A model generated the notes under the pieces. The model saw only the letters and a program-made list of their open reading frames with translations, had not been told where the DNA came from and did no database searches. This document shows, piece after piece, positions 50,421-60,000 of a stretch of DNA of 60,000 nucleotides. Position 1 is the stretch's first letter, and the number at the start of each line of letters is the position of its first letter. This DNA is from Komagataeibacter medellinensis NBRC 3288 (GTDB taxonomy: Bacteria > Pseudomonadota > Alphaproteobacteria > Acetobacterales > Acetobacteraceae), in assembly GCF_000182745.2 (NCBI RefSeq), contig NC_016027.1, positions 1-60,000 of the forward strand, read 5' to 3'. The position numbers and the translations under genes are program-made.

Positions 50421-51194
50421 TCAGGTGGCAGATGCCGTGGAAAGCAGGTGAGTTACCAGTTCCAGATCTGCTGGCTTGTCCACATCCACAGCGGCCCGGC
50501 CATCAGCCAGCGGGATCAGGGCAACACGGGCATGCGCAAGCTGGCCGATACGGCGACAGACATCCGCGCGGGTCAACCGCCTGAACACGAAGCGCAGCAG
50601 GATGCTCAGGCCCAGAATACGCGCCATCCGGAACGGGTGTTTGCGCTCGGTTTCCAGCTTCTGCCACAGCCGGATCACGCCGGCCGCAGCAGGTGTACGG
50701 AAAAGGAACATGTTACAGCCCGAGAACGCACCATCGGCCAGCCGGATCATGGTGCGCTTCGTGCCCGGCACGTCGCGCATGATCGACTCTTCCATGGCGA
50801 CGGCTGCTGCAACATCACTCCCGCTTTCCAGTGCCGCTTGCACAAAGCTGCGGACCCAGCCCGGCTCCAGCAGGGCATGGTCCGCTGTCGTGACCAGTAG
50901 CGGCGTACCAAGCGTGTCGAGTGCCTTCATGACACTGGCGCTCGGCCCGGCGGCAGGCGGGATGAAAGTCACGCCCGCTGGCACAATGCCTTCCAGCACG
51001 TCGGGTTGTTCGATGCAGATGGCGATCGTGTCGATGTCCCCTACTGATTGTAGTGCCGTGATGACCCGACTGATCATGGGCGTGCCACAGACCGGCAGCA
51101 GCGCCTTGTGCGAAATGCCGGCGGCCTGTGCCATGGGATCAACCCGGCCCGCCCGGCTTCCCGCCAGAATGAGGACATGGATCCCCATGCTCAT
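50421..51194 (-). CDS. MobA-like NTP transferase in the sphingolipid locus
   Basis: This 257-residue nucleotidyltransferase-fold protein (NTP_transf_3 type) is related to MobA and sugar- or polyol-phosphate cytidylyltransferases. It has a VLILAGSRAGR N-terminus, the conserved Lys in SHKALLPVCGTPMI, VTTADHALLE for the metal Asp and the late DVDKPADLELV. A likely role is to activate a head-group precursor as an NDP derivative, which is inference. Its ATG overlaps the stop of the fatty-acid hydroxylase gene (ATGA). It is the last gene of the five-gene minus-strand unit. Confidence 0.72.
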   Translation of the reverse strand: MSMGIHVLILAGSRAGRVDPMAQAAGISHKALLPVCGTPMISRVITALQSVGDIDTIAICIEQPDVLEGIVPAGVTFIPPAAGPSASVMKALDTLGTPLLVTTADHALLEPGWVRSFVQAALESGSDVAAAVAMEESIMRDVPGTKRTMIRLADGAFSGCNMFLFRTPAAAGVIRLWQKLETERKHPFRMARILGLSILLRFVFRRLTRADVCRRIGQLAHARVALIPLADGRAAVDVDKPADLELVTHLLSTASAT

Positions 51195-51973
51195 GCTGCG
51201 TTGCGCGTGGTGTTGGCACCATCGGGCCGGTCACGCGGGGGGGAGCCGGTTTCTTCCATAACCCAGGGGTAATGCTGCGCTTCCTTGATGTCGTAGCCAA
51301 GGTTGAACACCGTGGGGCTGCGCGGGCAGCCACGGGCATCGCGGTAATAGCTGCGGAACAGGCGGTCAGCCACGAAGCTGGTGATGCCGTAATTGCCATT
51401 TTCGTTATGGAAATGATGCAGGACGTGGCGCTGCTTCATGCGCTGAATCCAGTTCATGCGCGGCTTGTAATTAAGGTGCTGGATACAGTGAAAGAATTCA
51501 TAAATGCAGGTAATGGTCAGTCCTGCACCGAAGGCTGCTGCCGATGCCGGCATGCCGCCAATGGCGTAGCCGATGGGAATGGTCACGACGGCGATGGTGG
51601 GAATGGTGTTGAGCGGTGAACCGAACAGCACATCCAGCAGGTGCGGATCCTGGTGATGGTCAAAATGGATGCGTTTCCACAGCGATGCGCTCCATTTCAT
51701 GCGGTACAGGAAGCGCCCATGCAGGATGAAGCGATGGATGGCATACCATACCATCGGATAGACCAGCATGACCGCCCCGATGCTGACAGCTACCGGAACA
51801 AAAGCGGCATAAGTATATGCCATTACGGTAAAGCTGCACAGAATCAGGGCAAAATAGAGCAGGATGGTGGGATAGGTCAGGTAGGCAATCCAGAGCTGGG
51901 ATAGGTTCATTTTGCCCAGGTCGAAACTCCGGCCCGTGCGGATTGAACTGTTCTTCAGGGTGTTGGTAATCAT
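51191..51973 (-). CDS. fatty acid hydroxylase / sterol desaturase superfamily, probable ceramide hydroxylase
   Basis: This 260-residue membrane diiron enzyme has about four hydrophobic segments (LLYFALILCSFTVMAYTYAA, FVPVAVSIGAVMLVYPMVW and others). Its histidine boxes are HRFILH, HFDHH, HCIQH and HVLHHFH, the eight-histidine pattern of alkane/fatty-acid hydroxylases. In a sphingolipid locus it probably hydroxylates the fatty acyl chain or sphingoid base of the ceramide; 2-hydroxy acyl ceramides are known in acetic acid bacteria. ATG 51973 overlaps the lptG-like stop; the frame further upstream to 52129 is lptG antiframe. It ends with an ATGA overlap. Confidence 0.8.
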   Translation of the reverse strand: MITNTLKNSSIRTGRSFDLGKMNLSQLWIAYLTYPTILLYFALILCSFTVMAYTYAAFVPVAVSIGAVMLVYPMVWYAIHRFILHGRFLYRMKWSASLWKRIHFDHHQDPHLLDVLFGSPLNTIPTIAVVTIPIGYAIGGMPASAAAFGAGLTITCIYEFFHCIQHLNYKPRMNWIQRMKQRHVLHHFHNENGNYGITSFVADRLFRSYYRDARGCPRSPTVFNLGYDIKEAQHYPWVMEETGSPPRDRPDGANTTRNAA

Positions 51974-53079
51974 CGCTCTTCGATCCTCAGTAGCACGGTG
52001 ATGACGCCAAGGATAAAAATAAGGATCCCGACGAATATCGCCATAAGCGAGGGCAGCGTTCCTGCATTTCCCAGCGCACGCAGCAGCCCCTGGAATACAA
52101 CAAACAGCAGGCCGGCGCCCAGACACCATACCGGTAGCCAGCTGCGGATGCCAGCCCGGGGGGGGATATAGACCACCGGCACGGCCAGTAACAGCATTAC
52201 CGTGAATGTCACGGGTAACATGATGCGTCCCAGTATTTCGGTCAGGAAGAAGGACGGGGACTGGCTGGAAGGCAGGCTGCCGTTTTCTTCAGCCAGCATC
52301 GTGCTGATGGACTGGGTAAAGCTTGTGGTCAGTTGGGTGATGTAACCGGGGGTCAGCGTAATGGGCCAGTCAAGCCGCGTGCTTTGACCGGGCGGGATAT
52401 CGAGCAGGTCGACACGGGTGGGGCTGACAACGTCAAGCACCCGGGCAGGCGTACCATACCAGTGACCATGTACATAGCGCGCCGAGTCCAGAGTCGTGAC
52501 CTTCTGTAGCAGGCTCTGGCGGTCGCGGTGATAGACCATTACATCCTTGAGTACGCTTCCCCCGTTGCCAAGGAAGTGGATGCTGATCAGGTCATTGCCC
52601 GAACGGATCCAGTAATTGTGGGGGTCAGCAAGGGCATCTGGCGCGGTGAGGTTCCACCACTGGGCCAGAGCCTGTTCGGTGCGCGGGGTAACCTGATCAT
52701 TCACCACTCCGCATAATATGCCCAGCACGATGGTGGTAGGCAGGAACAGCTTGATCAGTCCCGGCGTAGACAGTCCCGCCGCGCGCATGATCGCGATCTC
52801 GTTGGATGTTGTCATCTGCATCAGCGCCAGCAGGGCACCGATCAACATGGCAATCGGCATGGCGTTGCAGAACAGGAGTGGCAGGCGCATCACCGCATAA
52901 TACAGCACCCCGCTCATACCCAGATGGCGGTGCATGATTTCCGTTACCTGTTCCAGCAGGGCCAGGATTTCCATGAGCGATACGACGATAATGGCGGTGG
53001 CGAACACCTTGCCCATCATCTCGCGCGACAGGTAGCCCAGCAGGACCGTGCCGCTGGCCAGGCGCAGCCGGTGCTTCAT
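51970..53079 (-). CDS. LptG-like permease in the sphingolipid locus
   Basis: This 369-residue LptF/LptG-family permease has three N-terminal membrane segments (FATAIIVVSLMEILALLEQV, MRLPLLFCNAMPIAMLIGALLAL and others). A periplasmic beta-jellyroll of about 150 residues and three C-terminal segments follow. LptFG with LptB normally extracts LPS from the inner membrane. Here the pair sits inside a sphingolipid locus and is translationally coupled to the LptF-like gene (ATGA) and the hydroxylase (ATGA), so it may be a dedicated lipid extractor. It may instead be the only LPS permease pair of the cell; copies elsewhere in the genome would decide. Confidence 0.78.
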   Translation of the reverse strand: MKHRLRLASGTVLLGYLSREMMGKVFATAIIVVSLMEILALLEQVTEIMHRHLGMSGVLYYAVMRLPLLFCNAMPIAMLIGALLALMQMTTSNEIAIMRAAGLSTPGLIKLFLPTTIVLGILCGVVNDQVTPRTEQALAQWWNLTAPDALADPHNYWIRSGNDLISIHFLGNGGSVLKDVMVYHRDRQSLLQKVTTLDSARYVHGHWYGTPARVLDVVSPTRVDLLDIPPGQSTRLDWPITLTPGYITQLTTSFTQSISTMLAEENGSLPSSQSPSFFLTEILGRIMLPVTFTVMLLLAVPVVYIPPRAGIRSWLPVWCLGAGLLFVVFQGLLRALGNAGTLPSLMAIFVGILIFILGVITVLLRIEER

Positions 53080-54308
53080 GCCTGACGTTCCGTCATGTGG
53101 CGGGGCAGACCATCAGCGGAAAGCTGGCGCGAAGCCATGCTCGGCCCACGTTCGAGCAGGATACGCAATCCACCCGCCTGCCGGATCAGAACACCTACGC
53201 AGATAAGGCAGAATACCAGTGTGGGCAGCCAGATCACCAGCAGCGGCGACATATGCATGTTGGCGACAAAGCTCATGCCCATCTGTAGCGTATGGTCGAA
53301 CCCGACCAGTGTTATGGCGGCAATGGCCAGGCCGGGGTTATTTTTCTGCCGCTTGCGCACACCTGCTAGGGCACAGGCCAGAATAGGGATGAAGGGAATG
53401 GCCGTTGTGCGCGCCAGACGGAAATTCAGCTCCGCAATCATATAGGAATGGCTAATGGCGGGATTGCCGTGCCTGATGCCGTAATACAGTTCGGGTACGG
53501 TCAGTTCGCGCTCGGTCTCGCCACGTTTGCGGTAGGCTTCGTCATCGAGTTTGCTTCGACCCGAGATCAGGCGGGTGGTGCGTGTAAAGCCGGTTACCGA
53601 GGGCTGTTTGTCCTGGCTGTCGGTCACAATGGTGCCATCAACCAGGTCAAGGCGGATGTCCGATCCGTCTGCCGGGTTGAAGATATATCCCTTCTGGGCC
53701 GTTATGAAGCGGATATGCGCCTTGTCCGTTGCGTCACGGATAAAGATGTTCCACATGCGTGATCCGGCATGGTCAACATTTTCCGCAGTCAGCACGATGT
53801 CGTCCGATATGGCGAACATCTTGGACTGCAGGTGTGGCGTCCAGCCCGCATGACTGGCGAAATAGAAGGCCGAACGGTAATCATAACGCGCATAGGGCTG
53901 TATGAAGCCGTACAGCGAGAACGCCAGAAAGCCGAATATCGCCCCTGTCACCACAAAGGGCCGACATATGCGAAAGAGCGAGACCCCGCTTGCCATCAGG
54001 GCATCGATCTCATGGTTGGTACTCATGCGCCGGATGACAGAAAACACGCTCACGCACATCGCCGCAGGCAGGGCCAGCCCCAGATAATGGGGGATCAGGT
54101 CACTTAGCAGCGCGAAGAAGGTTTTCATCGAACTGCCATTGGCAGCGAGCAGGTTGAACAGCACCAGCAGGCGTTCGAGCAGGAGCGCCGACATGACAAC
54201 GCCCAGTGCGATGGAAAACGGCGGCACGACCTGGCGCAGCAGGTAGCGGTCCAGGGTGCTTGGAGCAAGCCTGTCCAGTATCCGGTGCTGAAGCGACGTG
54301 CGATTCAT
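53076..54308 (-). CDS. LptF-like permease in the sphingolipid locus
   Basis: This 410-residue LptF/LptG-family permease has an N-terminal cytoplasmic helix DRYLLRQVVPPF and three membrane segments (IALGVVMSALLLERLLVLF, YLGLALPAAMCVSVFSVI and others). A periplasmic domain with RRMSTNHEIDALMASG and three C-terminal segments follow. LptF family membership is clear; the assignment to LPS rather than another lipid is not. The ATG at 54308 overlaps the end of the metallophosphoesterase gene (ATGA), and the stop overlaps the LptG-like start (ATGA). Confidence 0.78.
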   Translation of the reverse strand: MNRTSLQHRILDRLAPSTLDRYLLRQVVPPFSIALGVVMSALLLERLLVLFNLLAANGSSMKTFFALLSDLIPHYLGLALPAAMCVSVFSVIRRMSTNHEIDALMASGVSLFRICRPFVVTGAIFGFLAFSLYGFIQPYARYDYRSAFYFASHAGWTPHLQSKMFAISDDIVLTAENVDHAGSRMWNIFIRDATDKAHIRFITAQKGYIFNPADGSDIRLDLVDGTIVTDSQDKQPSVTGFTRTTRLISGRSKLDDEAYRKRGETERELTVPELYYGIRHGNPAISHSYMIAELNFRLARTTAIPFIPILACALAGVRKRQKNNPGLAIAAITLVGFDHTLQMGMSFVANMHMSPLLVIWLPTLVFCLICVGVLIRQAGGLRILLERGPSMASRQLSADGLPRHMTERQA

Positions 54309-55222
54309 GAGTCGGTGCTTATACCCGGAAAGGAGCGGGAGGGTGAAAGAAGTTCGAAAACGGTTTCCTGCGTGGTAACAGCCTCTCCATCTTCAGGAAA
54401 GAAACGCCGTGTAACAGCCAATGTGTACCCTTTGTCTCCGCTGCTGACCGTAATGCGATTCCATCCCGCCGCGCGCAGCGGGTCGTGCGCGCGGGCGGAA
54501 GCCGAGGCTACGCCCAGAACCGGCACGGCGCCCAGTGGGCCGGGAAGGGAGGAAATGGTCGCGGTATGAATATGGCCATGCAGTACCATTTCCGCCCCTT
54601 CGTGTGCAATACAGTCAGCGAAATTATCCGGGTCTCGGAGTGCCTTGCGGGGGATGGCAAGCCCGGGTACCGGCGGGTGGTGGATCATGACGATCCGGCA
54701 CAGGCCTTGCCGTCCGGTTTCGTTCAGGATCGTGCGCAGGCGCGCCGCCTGCCGCGCGCCCATGGTGCCGGTTGCCCGAAACCATGGCGTTGGCACCGCC
54801 GAACTGACCCCGATCAGCGCAACAGGCCCCATCCGGCGTACAAAGGGAAAGGGCAGCTTACCCATCCATGGTTGCCATAGGCCCACAGTCTGCTGCCAGT
54901 CGGCATGCACAAGGGTGTCATGATTGCCGGGTATGACTGTACAAGAGGCGGGCATGCCTTCCAGCCAGCGCAGGGCATTGCGACACTCGCCCGGCAGACC
55001 CATGTTGGTCAGATCGCCCGTCACGGCAATCATGTTCACATGATTTGCCGTTATGTCGGCCATGACACGGGCCAGGATCTCGGGTCGATGCACGAAACGG
55101 CGGTGCCCACGCCATGAAAAATAGCTGAACATGCGTTTGTTCAGGCGGTCTGCAAGGCGGGGAGGTGCCATTTCCGTCGGCAGGTGAGGGTCCGAAAGAT
55201 GTGCAATAGTAATGGGATTCAA
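54305..55222 (-). CDS. calcineurin-like metallophosphoesterase in the sphingolipid locus
   Basis: This 305-residue phosphoesterase has all five metallophosphatase motifs: HLSDPHLP, VTGDLTNMG, IPGNHDTLV, VMIHHPPV and LHGHIHT. It could remove a phosphate from a lipid or head-group intermediate. The frame begins at 55321, but the conserved fold starts only at LNPITIAHLSD; TTG 55222 with AGAGG five bases before it is my choice and ATG 55255 is a second option. It heads the five-gene minus-strand unit and is divergent from the lipid kinase gene. Confidence 0.75.
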   Translation of the reverse strand: MNPITIAHLSDPHLPTEMAPPRLADRLNKRMFSYFSWRGHRRFVHRPEILARVMADITANHVNMIAVTGDLTNMGLPGECRNALRWLEGMPASCTVIPGNHDTLVHADWQQTVGLWQPWMGKLPFPFVRRMGPVALIGVSSAVPTPWFRATGTMGARQAARLRTILNETGRQGLCRIVMIHHPPVPGLAIPRKALRDPDNFADCIAHEGAEMVLHGHIHTATISSLPGPLGAVPVLGVASASARAHDPLRAAGWNRITVSSGDKGYTLAVTRRFFPEDGEAVTTQETVFELLSPSRSFPGISTDS

Positions 55223-55382
55223 GATCGCCTCTTTCCTTCCGGCATGCCTGCGCATCAGGGTTATGCGCATGTGTTGTGCCAGACCCCTGTAGGGGGGGCA
55301 CCTGCTTTTCGTGCCTTGCAATAGAAGGCAGATGGTTGCTTATGACCTGTAAGTCAAATTTCAGACAGGGATGGGATGATTG

Positions 55383-56363
55383 GTGACCGGATGTTTTGCG
55401 CTTGTTTACAACCCGCGCAGCCGACGGAACATGAGCGACACGAGCGCCTATGCCCCGACTGCCCGTGCGCTGCTTGGAGGCAATTTCATCGATCCGGCTG
55501 ACCGCTCCCGTCTGGATGCTCATATCGCGGACCTGGCTTCGCGCAATATGGAGTGTATTGTCATAGATGGAGGAGACGGCACGGTAAGCGACGTACTGAG
55601 CGCCGTGCACCGCCACTATGCCCCTGACCGCCTACCCGCGATTGCTGTGCTGCCATCGGGCAATACCAACCTTATAGCAGGTGATGTGGGCTTTGGCCTG
55701 CGCGGGACCAAAGCGCTGGAGCGCCTGCAGCAGCTTGCCGTATCCAACCGGTTGCGGCGCAACGTGCGTCGGCGCTGCGGGTTGGTGGTGCAATGGCCAG
55801 ACAGTGAGGACAGGCCCCCCGTTGTTGGCATGTTCCATGGGGCGGCGGCCTTTACGCGCGGGATCGAACTGGCCCACCAGCCCGCGATCCTGAACAATTA
55901 TTCGCATGAGATGGCGGTGATCGTCTCCTTCCTGTCATCCGTGGGGCGCCTGCTTACGCGGCGTTCGCGGCAGGAATGGATGCAGGGCGACCCAATGACG
56001 ATTCTGGCGGGCGCGCAGACCCGGCTGGAGGGCAACTGCTTCTTGTTCCTGTCTACTACGCTCCAGCGCCTGCCTTATCGCATATGGCCGTTCTGGACGG
56101 GGCAGGACATGCGCGACGATACCATTAATTTCCTGTACGTGACGGGCCGGCCCTCGCAGCTGGCGGCGGCGGCGTGGGCGCTGCTGCGCGGCCGGCAGCC
56201 TGCGTGGCTGCGCCACAATCCCGATTACAGTAGTGGGTGTGAGGAGCAGATCGAAATGCACCTTAATTCCGATTTCGTGCTGGATGGAGAAGTCTTTTCC
56301 CCCGGTGCGACCGGGCGGATCATCCTTTCCGCCACCGCGCCCATAGATTTTATCCATGCATGA
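55383..56363 (+). CDS. DAGK-family lipid kinase, candidate ceramide kinase
   Basis: This 326-residue protein has the diacylglycerol-kinase catalytic motif GGDGT (63-67) in VIDGGDGTVSD and the LPSGNTNLIAG nucleotide loop. The family phosphorylates diacylglycerol, sphingosine, ceramide or other lipid alcohols. In Caulobacter a kinase of a sphingolipid cluster (CpgB) phosphorylates ceramide, which is a natural assignment here but unproven. The start is GTG 55383 (or TTG 55380) after GGATGGGATG. The stop overlaps ATG 56356, but the next gene more likely starts at 56377. Confidence 0.75.
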   Translation: MTGCFALVYNPRSRRNMSDTSAYAPTARALLGGNFIDPADRSRLDAHIADLASRNMECIVIDGGDGTVSDVLSAVHRHYAPDRLPAIAVLPSGNTNLIAGDVGFGLRGTKALERLQQLAVSNRLRRNVRRRCGLVVQWPDSEDRPPVVGMFHGAAAFTRGIELAHQPAILNNYSHEMAVIVSFLSSVGRLLTRRSRQEWMQGDPMTILAGAQTRLEGNCFLFLSTTLQRLPYRIWPFWTGQDMRDDTINFLYVTGRPSQLAAAAWALLRGRQPAWLRHNPDYSSGCEEQIEMHLNSDFVLDGEVFSPGATGRIILSATAPIDFIHA

Positions 56364-56376
56364 GGAAGGGACATAC

Positions 56377-57345
56377 ATGCCCCAGCCTGATCCAAACAGC
56401 CGCCTTGCCGCCGCAGGCCGTATCGCCCACCTGCTGGCGGACGAACTGGTCCAGCCGGTCGCTCCCTTCGTTACTGACTTTGTCACGCAGCTTGTGGGCG
56501 GGGTACAGCCGCTGGGCGTGGTCTTCTACGGTTCGGTCCTGCGCGAGATGGACCCCGAAGGCATCCTGGATTTCTATGTCATCGTTGAACATCTGAAGGA
56601 CTGGAGGGCAGGCCCTGTGGCGCGTGAGGCCAATCGCCTCCTGCCTCCCAATGTCGAATATCACGAAATCCTGGTTGATGATCGTCTCATCCGGGCCAAG
56701 GTTGCCATCCTGTCCATTGACCAGTTTCGGCGCATGACGGGGCCGGCATCGCTTGATACGACGGTCTGGGCGCGCTTCTGCCAGCCTGTGCGACTGGTAT
56801 GGATACGCGGATCGGAGGCGGCCGATGCCATCCTGTCGTGCATTGTGCGGGCCGTGGGGCAGGCAGGGCGATGGGCTGCCGCACTCGGGCCGGAATCGGG
56901 CACGGCGGATGAGTACTGGCGTGCCCTGTTCGCCCATACCTACGGTGCGGAGTTACGTGTGGAGAACGGGCGCAGGCCTCGCACTCTGCTGGCAGGACGG
57001 GAAGAACGTTACAGGGCGCTGCTGCCAGATATCTGGATTGCCGATGGCCTACCGTTCGAGCGCAGTGCAGACATGCTCACTCCTCGCCTGACGCCGGGCC
57101 TGCGGAGCAGGATGCGCGAAGGCTGGTGGTTGCGCGGGCGGGTGGGGCGTGTGCTGAATATCAGCAGATTGGCCAAGGGTGCCTTCACGTTTGAAGGGGG
57201 CGCGCGCTACATCGCTTGGAAAATACAGCGTCATTCCGGCATTATACTGCCGCTTGGCCCGTTTTCGGAACGGCATCCACTGATCTGCCTGCCGTATCTC
57301 CTATGGAAGTTACGACAGGCCGGTTTTTTCAGGCGACGCGGCTGA
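56377..57345 (+). CDS. Tam41-like nucleotidyltransferase, candidate lipid-CMP transferase
   Basis: This 322-residue protein of a nucleotidyltransferase fold has the motif YGS (51-53) with Asp65 in GILDFYVIVE, then EHLKDW and VEYHEILVDD. This pattern resembles the Tam41 family, which makes CDP-diacylglycerol. Next to a lipid kinase, it may convert a phosphorylated lipid to its CDP form, for later head-group addition. AGGAAGGG lies seven bases before ATG 56377. It runs 17 bases into the 3' end of the convergent spt gene. The Tam41 link is a motif-level reading. Confidence 0.6.
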   Translation: MPQPDPNSRLAAAGRIAHLLADELVQPVAPFVTDFVTQLVGGVQPLGVVFYGSVLREMDPEGILDFYVIVEHLKDWRAGPVAREANRLLPPNVEYHEILVDDRLIRAKVAILSIDQFRRMTGPASLDTTVWARFCQPVRLVWIRGSEAADAILSCIVRAVGQAGRWAAALGPESGTADEYWRALFAHTYGAELRVENGRRPRTLLAGREERYRALLPDIWIADGLPFERSADMLTPRLTPGLRSRMREGWWLRGRVGRVLNISRLAKGAFTFEGGARYIAWKIQRHSGIILPLGPFSERHPLICLPYLLWKLRQAGFFRRRG

Positions 57346-58531
57346 GACCCATTTCGGTTGCGACGGTAGCGAAGATTTCCACGGCCCTGTCAATCTGTTC
57401 CGGCGTATGGGTCGCCATGACGGAGGTCCGCAGCAGGGGGTGCTGGTCTGGCGTTGCGGGCGGCAGGCTGAGGTTGACGTAAACTCCTAGGTCAAGCAGC
57501 CGGTTCCAGAAGGCCACCGCGACTGGGATTTCATCCAGAATGACTGACACGACCGGGCTGGCCTGCGGGCCGGTGCGTAGGCCAGCCGCCTGTAGCCCCG
57601 CATGCAGCCTGCGTGCGTTATCCATAAGGCGTACACGCAGTTCGGGCCGGTTTTCCAGTTCATCCAGCGCCGCCATGGTCGCGGCGATGACTTCGGGCGG
57701 CAGGGACGCGGTGAACATGTAGGGGCGTGAGCACAGGCGGATCAGATCCAGCCCATCATGGTTGGACACACAGTAGCCACCGACCGTGCCAAGGCTCTTG
57801 GAGAAAGTGCCGACAACAAAGTCCACATCATCTTCCACGCCATCGGCTTCCGCCACGCCACGGCCATGCTTACCCATCACGCCAACGGAATGGGCTTCAT
57901 CAGCCAGCAGCCAAGCGCCCGTCTCGCGTTTGACGGCAGCGAATTCCGCCATGGGCACCACATCGCCCATCATGGAATAGATACCCTCGACCACAACCAG
58001 CTTCGCACCTGGCGTACCATCCAGACGGCGCAGGCGCTTGTGCAGGTCATCGGCATCATTATGGCGGAAACGGATCACCTGCGCATGGCCAAGGCGGCTA
58101 CCGTCATAGATGCTGGCATGGCTGTCTGCATCCAGAAGCAGATAGTCATCCTTGCCTGCCAGCGCCGAGATGGTGCCCAGATTGGCCTGGTAGCCAGTGG
58201 AAAACACCATGCAGTGTTTGCGCCTGAAGAACGCGGACAGCCGCTCCTCCAACTGGCGGTGCAGCCCCTGCGTACCATTGGCGATGCGTGAGCCTGTGGT
58301 GCCTACGCCATAGGCTTTCGCTGCGGCAACGGCGGCTTCAATCGCGGCGGGGGACTGGCTCAGGCCCAGATAGTTATTGGTGCCGAACAGAAGCGTCTCG
58401 CGCCCCTCGATCAGCCCGACCGTCGAGGAAATCGGCTTTTCGATGACCACGTTGAAAGGATTGCGGCCACCACCGGCGGTAACGGACTTCAGTGCCGATG
58501 CCAAGCCTTCATATTTCGAGAAAATTGACAT
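57329..58531 (-). CDS. spt: serine palmitoyltransferase
   Basis: Serine palmitoyltransferase condenses serine and an acyl thioester to 3-ketosphinganine with PLP, the first step of sphingolipid synthesis. The 400-residue alpha-oxoamine synthase has the PLP lysine Lys245 (GTFSKSLGTVGGY), His138 (DADSHASIYDG, which stacks on PLP), Asp211 (LLADEAHSVGV) and a late LLRTSVMATHT. Other alpha-oxoamine synthases (KBL, AONS) share these motifs. The neighbouring acyl carrier protein and acyl-AMP ligase point to the SPT identity. The stop overlaps the convergent Tam41-like gene. Confidence 0.9.
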   Translation of the reverse strand: MSIFSKYEGLASALKSVTAGGGRNPFNVVIEKPISSTVGLIEGRETLLFGTNNYLGLSQSPAAIEAAVAAAKAYGVGTTGSRIANGTQGLHRQLEERLSAFFRRKHCMVFSTGYQANLGTISALAGKDDYLLLDADSHASIYDGSRLGHAQVIRFRHNDADDLHKRLRRLDGTPGAKLVVVEGIYSMMGDVVPMAEFAAVKRETGAWLLADEAHSVGVMGKHGRGVAEADGVEDDVDFVVGTFSKSLGTVGGYCVSNHDGLDLIRLCSRPYMFTASLPPEVIAATMAALDELENRPELRVRLMDNARRLHAGLQAAGLRTGPQASPVVSVILDEIPVAVAFWNRLLDLGVYVNLSLPPATPDQHPLLRTSVMATHTPEQIDRAVEIFATVATEMGLSRVA

Positions 58532-58537
58532 GATGCG

Positions 58538-58789
58538 TCAGGATGCCTGCTTGAGGGAGACGATGCAGACCGCCAGATCATCAATGGTGCGAATATCAGC
58601 CAGCCGGTCAAGCGGCACGGAAACATCAAGGGTATCCTCGATTTCCATGACAAAATTCATGACGGCCAGTGAATCAAAGGCCAGATCTTCAACGATCTTG
58701 CTGCTGCCATTGATATCACGGGGAACCTTAGGGTTCGCCAGCAGCGTCTTCACGATCAGTGCGGAGACGCTCGCTACCGTTTCACTCAT
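58538..58789 (-). CDS. specialised acyl carrier protein for sphingolipid synthesis
   Basis: This 83-residue acyl carrier protein has Ser40 as the phosphopantetheine site in AFDSLAVMN. It differs from AcpP (45449-45688): it has a SKIVEDL loop and a VSVPLDRL segment. Such a protein (AcpR) lies next to spt in the Caulobacter sphingolipid cluster and presents the acyl chain to serine palmitoyltransferase. It is six bases upstream of spt on the same strand. The frame continues upstream to 58861, but MSETVA at 58789 is the true start. Confidence 0.85.
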   Translation of the reverse strand: MSETVASVSALIVKTLLANPKVPRDINGSSKIVEDLAFDSLAVMNFVMEIEDTLDVSVPLDRLADIRTIDDLAVCIVSLKQAS

Positions 58790-58810
58790 TCCAACATCCT
58801 TATGGCACGT

Positions 58811-58891
58811 CCTGCCTGCCGCAGGCAGGGGAACAGCATGAATGACCAGACCACGATCCATGGATCGTGGGTGGGGACTGTATTTGTCCCC
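58811..58891. promoter_or_regulatory. three consecutive perfect inverted repeats upstream of the ACP gene
   Basis: The first has arms CCTGCCTGC (58811-58819) and GCAGGCAGG (58821-58829). The second is a 20-base perfect palindrome, CCACGATCCA (58851-58860) and TGGATCGTGG (58861-58870). The third has GGGGAC (58873-58878) and GTCCCC (58886-58891) around TGTATTT. All lie in the 184-base gap between the acyl-AMP ligase and the ACP gene (58790-58973), which has no gene. They may be operators or mRNA structures that set the amounts of the downstream genes. Confidence 0.5.
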
Positions 58892-58973
58892 TGATCGGAA
58901 GCCTTATGGGCGAAAAACAGCTTTTTGACCAGTACTGCTTTCCGCCAGTTGGCAGCGGTAATTGCCCTGACCT

Positions 58974-60000
58974 TCAGACCACGGATACGGATGATGCTTC
59001 CAGTGGCTGAAAAGCCCCGGAAAGCAGCATGGCCTTGGCCCGTGCCCGCGTCAGCTTGCCCGATGAGGTCTGGGGAAGCGTATGGGGCGGTACCAGAATG
59101 ATGGATACATCCACGCCGTGCTGCCGACGGAACAGGTTGGCGGTGTCAGTCTTCAGCGTCTCGCGTGCTTCGGGGGAAGATGCGCGGCACTGCACAAGAG
59201 CCACGATCTTCTCGCCTTCATCCTCATCAACCGAAAATACGGCCACGTCACGGCTGCGCAGAGTGCTGATTTCCGTCTCGGCCGACCATTCCAGGTCCTG
59301 CGGCCAGATGTTACGACCGTTGATAATGATCAGGTCTTTGGCGCGGCCAGTCACGACGACCTGCCCATCCAGCATGTACCCCAGGTCACCGGTATTAAGC
59401 CACCCATCGGCATCCATTACGCGTGCGGTCTCATGCGGGCGGCGGAAATAGCCCTGCATCAGGCTGGGGCCGCGCACGAACACGGTGCCGATCTTGCGGT
59501 CTGTCAACACATTGCCTTCGCTGTCGCGCACTTCAAGTTCATGCTGGGGCAGGACCTCGCCACAGATGACAAAAGTGCGCAGTGCCCGAGCCGGATCGTT
59601 GGAAGGTACGGCCTCGCCGCGCGTCTCAAGCGCACGCAGGTCGATCGTATCGGTACGGATGCCAGAACCCAGTGGTGCGAAGCTTATGGCCAGGGTTGCT
59701 TCCGCCATGCCGTAGCTGGCGGTAAAGGCCCCGCTGTCAAAGCCGGCTGAGGCAAAGCGCTGCGCGAAATCCTCAAGAATATGGTAGCGGATCATGTCTC
59801 CGCCGATACCCGCAACCCGCCATGACGAGAGGTCGAGTTCGATCGAGGTTGCGCGCCGGGCGCACAGTTCATAGCCAAAGGACGGACTGTAGGAAATTGT
59901 GCCACGGTTACGGCTGATCAGGTCCAGCCATACATGCGGGCGCCGCGCGAACTCGCGCGTGGGCAGCATGTCCACGCTCAACTGACAGGTCAGGGGAGTC
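58974..60000 (-). CDS. fatty acyl-AMP ligase / acyl-ACP synthetase (partial, 5' end outside window)
   Basis: This ANL-superfamily ligase activates a fatty acid with ATP and loads it onto the acyl carrier protein. The 3' part, 342 codons, is inside the window. It shows LDLISRNRGTISYSPSFGYELC, the core TGDLGYMLDGQVVVTGRAKDLIIINGRNIWPQDLEW and a C-terminal region ending SSGKLTRARAKAML. The frame stays open to base 60000, so the N-terminal 200 or more residues, with the ATP-binding P-loop, lie beyond it. In Caulobacter an acyl-ACP synthetase next to acpR feeds serine palmitoyltransferase. The 58974 stop is real. Confidence 0.85.
   Translation of the reverse strand, partial: TPLTCQLSVDMLPTREFARRPHVWLDLISRNRGTISYSPSFGYELCARRATSIELDLSSWRVAGIGGDMIRYHILEDFAQRFASAGFDSGAFTASYGMAEATLAISFAPLGSGIRTDTIDLRALETRGEAVPSNDPARALRTFVICGEVLPQHELEVRDSEGNVLTDRKIGTVFVRGPSLMQGYFRRPHETARVMDADGWLNTGDLGYMLDGQVVVTGRAKDLIIINGRNIWPQDLEWSAETEISTLRSRDVAVFSVDEDEGEKIVALVQCRASSPEARETLKTDTANLFRRQHGVDVSIILVPPHTLPQTSSGKLTRARAKAMLLSGAFQPLEASSVSVV

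Follow-up and report, generated by a model that had tools for sequence, protein, structure and literature searches.

A second LptF-LptG pair in the sphingolipid locus of Komagataeibacter medellinensis is a probable sphingolipid-specific head on a shared Lpt bridge

We analyzed a sphingolipid gene cluster at positions 50421..60000 of a 60,000-nucleotide stretch of the Komagataeibacter medellinensis NBRC 3288 genome (positions 1-60,000 of NC_016027.1, hereafter the window), which carries a pair of permeases related to LptF and LptG of the lipopolysaccharide (LPS) export system. All ten genes that an initial annotation had named in this cluster are present as open frames where it had placed them, with the gene for a fatty acyl-AMP ligase (FAAL) passing the window end (Table 1). 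This inventory proved sound, as nine of the ten products contain a fitting Pfam domain, the exception being a Tam41-like protein, and the serine palmitoyltransferase (SPT) scores above the NF047599 cut-off. Acetic acid bacteria make 2-hydroxy ceramides, and the cluster encodes a fatty acid hydroxylase whose start is probably at 51973 rather than at 52129. Four 4-base ATGA overlaps link the genes for the metallophosphoesterase, LptF, LptG, the hydroxylase and the nucleoside triphosphate (NTP) transferase, and the kinase and Tam41-like genes overlap by 8 bases. Therefore, the permeases are probably co-translated with the neighboring enzymes.

Table 1. Genes of the sphingolipid cluster in the window.
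Feature	Coordinates	Strand	Evidence
MobA-like NTP transferase	50421..51194	-	PF12804, 67.8 bits; positional counterpart of Caulobacter CC_1153 (locus description in PMC11324152)
Fatty acid hydroxylase, likely acyl 2-hydroxylase	51191..51973	-	PF04116, 73 bits; ATGA overlap with LptG stop
LptG2, sphingolipid-type (S clade) permease	51970..53079	-	PF03739, 188 bits; TIGR04408, 190 bits (cut-off 240); tree
LptF2, sphingolipid-type (S clade) permease	53076..54308	-	PF03739, 189 bits; TIGR04407, 181 bits (cut-off 230); tree
Metallophosphoesterase	54305..55321	-	PF00149, 39 bits; positional counterpart of CC_1158; start uncertain
Lipid kinase	55380..56363	+	PF00781, 43 bits; positional counterpart of CC_1160/CpgB, ceramide kinase (passages of PMC12275187 on CpgB)
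Tam41-fold protein, probable nucleotidyltransferase on ceramide 1-phosphate	56356..57345	+	Predicted structure, Foldseek; positional counterpart of CC_1161/CpgC
Serine palmitoyltransferase (SPT)	57329..58531	-	NF047599, 643 bits (equivalog cut-off 500 passed)
Dedicated acyl carrier protein (ACP)	58538..58861	-	PF00550, 37 bits; true start probably internal
Fatty acyl-AMP ligase (FAAL)	58974..60000	-	NF006624, 532 bits, partial; cut by window end; relative at L042 has 598 amino acids

Using the window proteins as queries, we searched the 32 other SPT loci of the family with SPT above the cut-off, fetched as stretches of 8 to 20 kb. All ten genes were recognized at 18 of these loci, where they follow the order FAAL-ACP-SPT / Tam41-like-kinase / phosphoesterase-LptF-LptG-hydroxylase-NTP transferase. 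The permeases were recognized at 22, and a profile search added a divergent pair at locus L040, leaving 9 SPT loci without a pair inside the fetched stretch. The closest described system is the Caulobacter crescentus sphingolipid locus CC_1168-CC_1152, which, in the account of the locus in PMC11324152, carries LptC2, LptF2 and LptG2 and has cluster orthologs in six other bacteria. It shares SPT, ACP, acyl ligase, kinase, CpgC-like protein, phosphoesterase, NTP transferase and LptF2-LptG2 with the window cluster in the same relative order, but has a ceramide synthase at the place that the hydroxylase occupies in the window. No LptC2 was found in the window genome; it stands clearly beside the cluster only in G393 among 48 genomes. 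The initial annotation had supposed that a dedicated sphingolipid extractor was not described; however, the relevant part of PMC11324152 (2024) already names LptC2/F2/G2 and suggests, as an untested proposal, that they transport sphingolipids. The idea of a dedicated head is therefore not new, and what we add is a copy-number rule, a tree, a residue survey and the case of E. coli.

The initial annotation had made a dedicated role for the window pair depend on another lptFG pair elsewhere in the genome, and such a pair exists. The PF03739 profile found four proteins in the K. medellinensis genome, namely the two permeases of the window and two encoded together at C3:1135339-1137542, next to LptD. 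The genome holds one LptD, one LptA (the remaining PF03968 match is LptD itself), one LptC, far from the sphingolipid cluster, and one LptB (counted at E 1e-75), which adjoins LptA and LptC. As far as the models used can see, there are two LptFG heads and one bridge in this genome. The window pair would therefore have to share LptB, LptC, LptA and LptD, whose single copies speak against a second dedicated bridge here. The cluster is not the complete module from acyl activation to export that the initial annotation inferred, as no ceramide synthase or reductase gene was recognized in the window part of the cluster and these four Lpt components are single-copy.

To place the permeases, we built a quick LG+G4 tree of 125 concatenated LptF-LptG pairs. 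One clade, here called S (58 rows, SH-aLRT branch support 98), unites the window pair, itself linked to SPT, ACP and acyl ligase, with the SPT-linked pairs of Caulobacter type and with nearly all pairs of the LpxC-less genomes described below. The genome's other pair sits in the alpha LPS clade (46 rows, support 100), so that the window pair stands apart from the LPS permeases. The two pairs of the genome are 18-20% identical, and this identity together with the difference in clade gives no support to the idea that the window pair is a recent copy of the LPS pair. A second tree, of 56 chosen rows under a mixture model, recovered S, the alpha LPS pairs and a second SPT-linked group, S2, as one clade each with support 100, and placed S2 with the gamma LPS pairs, E. 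coli's own among them. A single origin for all SPT-linked pairs (S and S2 together) was rejected by the approximately unbiased test (p 3.7e-5), with the groups named after the first tree had been seen. Of the 32 SPT genomes in the family that have an additional pair, 26 contain an S pair and 6 only an S2 pair. The rows of G408 and G212 are long, and their placement is unsure. The extra pairs of G034, G071 and G165 (L143, L145 and L148) form a separate long-branch group, and an LptB-like gene adjoins that of G034.

We next compared LptF/LptG copy number with SPT, counted above its cut-off, in a sample of 100 genomes of the family. At least four LptF/G matches are present in 32 of the 33 genomes with SPT (the exception, G019, has two), versus one of the 67 without it (G051, with four); four more SPT-less genomes have three, all of them assemblies of about 350 contigs or more (G015, G024, G029, G037), and the other 62 have one or two. 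The association is strong (Fisher p 7.5e-24, for genomes that are not independent of one another). The G051 cluster includes the NTP transferase, hydroxylase, both permeases, phosphoesterase, kinase and Tam41-like gene, a ceramide synthase homolog and a divergent SPT homolog (270 bits with a custom SPT profile), and no acyl ligase, ACP or reductase was recognized in it. Three within-genus contrasts, noticed rather than sought systematically, agree with this association: in genus g4, G003 without SPT has two LptF/G matches versus four in G091 with SPT, and the counts are two (G309) versus five (G393) in g136 and two (G355) versus four (G311) in g137. Together, these results match what the initial annotation had anticipated on each count: a second pair exists, the window pair does not group with LPS permeases, and its co-occurrence with SPT is strong.

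We then turned to genomes without LpxC. In a sample of 397 genomes of the phylum, scored for up to four SPT and five LptFG candidates per genome, we took absence of LpxC as absence of LPS. SPT was present in 39 genomes, of which five belong to the family of the window and have four LptF/G matches each. Among the 34 SPT genomes outside the family, LpxC was present in five (G193, G311, G393, G212 and G408), four of which have at least four LptF/G matches and one of which, G408, has two. LpxC was not found in the other 29; these have two LptF/G matches in 27 cases, three in G223 (the third a lone match) and none in G232. Only four of the 358 phylum genomes without SPT have at least four matches (G051, G165, G313 and G418), LpxC having been scored in a minority of the 358. 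The LptFG pairs of the 28 LpxC-less SPT genomes that have one fall in clade S in 27 cases, in S2 in one (G200) and in the LPS clade in none. LptD and LptB are kept in all 28, and LptC was matched in 27, in three of these with a score below the cut-off. The pair lies within 8.5 kb of SPT in 17 of these genomes.

At the level of sequence, the window pair is a regular member of the PF03739 fold family to which LptB2FG (PMC5548808, PMC6744409) belongs, with scores well above the gathering cut-off of 27.9 bits. We surveyed contact residues in 58 S, 11 S2, 46 alpha LPS and 9 gamma LPS proteins, using E. coli numbering. LptF E84 and LptG E88, which contact LptB according to the structural passages of PMC5548808, are present in 124 of 124 and 122 of 124 proteins (58/58 and 56/58 in S), and the window proteins keep both. 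In contrast, the window pair lacks the lysine that contacts lipid A phosphate: LptG K40, described in PMC6744409 as touching the lipid A 4'-phosphate, is replaced by T, and a basic residue occurs at this position in 44/46 alpha and 7/9 gamma LPS proteins versus 0/58 S and 2/11 S2. At K41, which touches the inner core according to the same description, the corresponding counts are 42/46, 6/9, 14/58 and 0/11. Caution against over-reading comes from K34 and R136, whose charge reversal is lethal in E. coli; among the 46 alpha LPS proteins, just 0 and 3, respectively, have a basic residue at these positions.

Some of these features would suit a second LPS permease, an isoform for modified LPS or for particular growth conditions that shares an operon with sphingolipid genes because both lipids serve the outer leaflet. 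The pair belongs to the same Pfam family as the LPS permeases, the LptB-contact glutamates are kept, the best NCBIfam models are those of LPS export LptG and LptF, even if the scores stay below the equivalog cut-offs (Table 1), and G418 combines LPS with an S-type pair while lacking SPT. However, in 27 LpxC-less SPT genomes the pair is S-type and none of LPS type is present, and an LPS-type pair still stands beside LptD in the window genome itself. We consider a second LPS permease improbable.

The residue survey also bears on the path that the cargo would take. LptF R212 is basic in 38/46 alpha and 8/9 gamma LPS proteins (46/55 LPS types together), versus 4/58 S, where Caulobacter-like L072 retains R, and 0/11 S2. 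Since changing R212 to G or S lets E. coli do without LptC, as reported in the suppressor passages of PMC5548808, S heads may lean less on LptC. One could go further and propose that the sphingolipid moved by the pair crosses the periplasm in another way, bypassing LptC or the LptA-LptD bridge. This seems very doubtful, given that LptD is kept in every one of the 28 LpxC-less SPT genomes with a pair and an LptC match in 27 of them, and that G232, in which no LptFG was found, likewise has no recognizable LptB, LptC or LptD.

To approach the association from the side of the permease, we scanned the named genomes with an alignment of 12 S-type LptF proteins and obtained at least 583 relatives, the best 80 of which were kept, many of them from Caulobacteraceae. 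SPT scored above 500 bits with a custom profile in 59 of the best 80, and in 43 of the 48 loci of at least 20 kb. At least one of SPT, acyl ligase, reductase, ceramide synthase, kinase and Tam41-like gene was found at 78 of these 80 loci, and none of the six was recognized at L192 or L220. As the query proteins all came from SPT-linked loci, this search shows consistency, not proof. The pair might instead export something that is simply made alongside sphingolipids, be it a different lipid of the outer membrane or a precursor linked to a lipid, and we found no experiment on the cargo of S pairs in the open-access literature. We nevertheless regard such a cargo as unlikely, because the pair stays with the backbone genes while the head-group genes vary: the LpxC-less loci L080, L082 and L085-L088 have SPT, ACP and the pair, and no kinase or Tam41-like gene was recognized in them.

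A second pair is also present in E. coli. In strain BL21(DE3) (NC_012971.2), acyl ligase, reductase, ACP and spt are followed by a second lptG-lptF at 2994920-2997066 (locus L172:20835-29843), and the ordinary lptF-lptG adjoins pepA. The likeness to the window cluster lies in the second pair beside SPT, ACP and acyl ligase; the differences are that the BL21(DE3) pair falls in S2, a clade that arose separately, and that no kinase or Tam41-like gene was recognized in the stretch. The nearby yghO scored 476 bits with a custom ceramide synthase profile, and the gene assignments in PMC9386255 likewise make it the ceramide synthase, in a paper that does not mention Lpt. Megablast against 5426 complete E. 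coli genomes matched spt in 4088 and the second pair in 4086 (4047 and 4060 at 80% coverage or more), counts that are not an independent association, since joint loss is expected of neighboring genes. In a K-12-like strain (L267:3455-5649), the site of the sphingolipid and second lptG-lptF genes of BL21 is occupied by an IS5, with yghO on one side and a truncated yghQ on the other. Ratios of nonsynonymous to synonymous substitution rates between BL21 and two strains with intact copies were low, at 0.04-0.11 for the permeases and 0.03-0.06 for spt, which suggests that both are under constraint. In E. coli THO-008 (L265:831-6018), the annotation marks two genes as broken, that of the acyl ligase and the second lptG, as if they were decaying together.

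Several observations weigh against a sphingolipid-specific role for the pair. When 46 rows of the LPS clade, among which exceptions were over-represented by choice, were put to an underpowered independent-pairs test, an average of 3 pairs favored the association, 0 opposed it and 3 were ties, which is not significant (median p 0.25). G019 and G408 have SPT and LpxC and yet a single LptFG pair, whereas G418 combines an S-type pair and LpxC with no SPT above the cut-off, and no sphingolipid gene was recognized in the 19.5 kb around its pair (L255). Some sphingomonad-type pairs are not linked to SPT: in 11 of the 28 LpxC-less genomes with a pair, it is distant from SPT or on another contig. G232 (L257) has homologs of SPT, acyl ligase, reductase, ACP and ceramide synthase, and neither LpxC nor any of the Lpt components LptFG, LptC, LptD and LptB was found in it. 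Finally, E. coli K40E/K41E mutants grow normally, according to passages of PMC5548808, so loss of K40 need not matter.

For the head group, the Tam41-like protein is central. It gave no Pfam, NCBIfam or PDB sequence match, but its predicted structure (mean pLDDT confidence score 92) returned Tam41 structures as the top five Foldseek matches, over 276-285 columns and with TM-scores by target length of 0.50-0.60, which bears out the original Tam41-like call at the level of fold. The likeness to Tam41, a cytidine diphosphate-diacylglycerol synthase, lies in this predicted fold, and the sequences are only 12-15% identical. Given its place beside a lipid kinase and SPT, ceramide 1-phosphate would be the likelier substrate. 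In the passages of PMC12275187 on the Cpg proteins, CpgB is a ceramide kinase and CpgC acts by a mechanism called unidentified; the discussion in PMC11324152 speculated that the CC_1161 product makes a nucleotide-activated ceramide, a proposal with which the predicted Tam41 fold agrees. Neither CpgA nor CpgD was recognized in the window cluster, and we therefore do not predict the final head group. At the second-type SPT loci L040 and L045, genes that by eye resemble inositol-phosphate synthase and CDP-alcohol transferase suggest an inositol head group. At L005:8103-15559, two large frames (604 and 826 amino acids) are enclosed by two identical, oppositely oriented transposase-like frames of 364 amino acids, as in a composite transposon.

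The K. medellinensis genome has two pairs of distinct ancestry and one each of LptB, LptC, LptA and LptD, and the second pair co-occurs with SPT and persists in SPT genomes that lack LpxC. On these grounds, we propose that LptF2-LptG2 is probably a sphingolipid-specific extraction head on a shared Lpt bridge. In this mechanism, which we infer from sequence comparisons, LptF2-LptG2 would replace LptF-LptG within an ATP-binding cassette transporter of the LptB2FG type. The kinase and the Tam41-fold enzyme would give the sphingolipid a phospho head group, and the head would draw the finished lipid out of the inner membrane and hand it to the same LptC-LptA-LptD bridge that serves LPS. On a broader level, we lean slightly toward a picture in which Lpt is a modular exporter of outer-leaflet lipids: the LptF-LptG head would set the cargo, one set of LptB, LptC, LptA and LptD would serve interchangeable heads, and makers of both LPS and sphingolipid would carry two heads where makers of a single lipid carry one. 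Sphingolipid heads would then have two or more origins, and some three quarters of complete E. coli genomes would carry one that K-12-type strains have lost. Among the papers listed by our searches of the open-access literature, none showed the copy-number rule, the situation in LPS-less genomes or the additional E. coli pair.

The passages of PMC11324152 on transport state that the route of bacterial sphingolipids from the inner to the outer membrane is unknown. If our proposal is true, a duplicated Lpt head would be the answer to this question, would explain why SPT genomes without LpxC retain LptFG, LptB and LptD, and would imply that a lipid other than LPS can take the LptD route. With a second pair in BL21(DE3), an E. 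coli strain in wide laboratory use, this transport question becomes testable.

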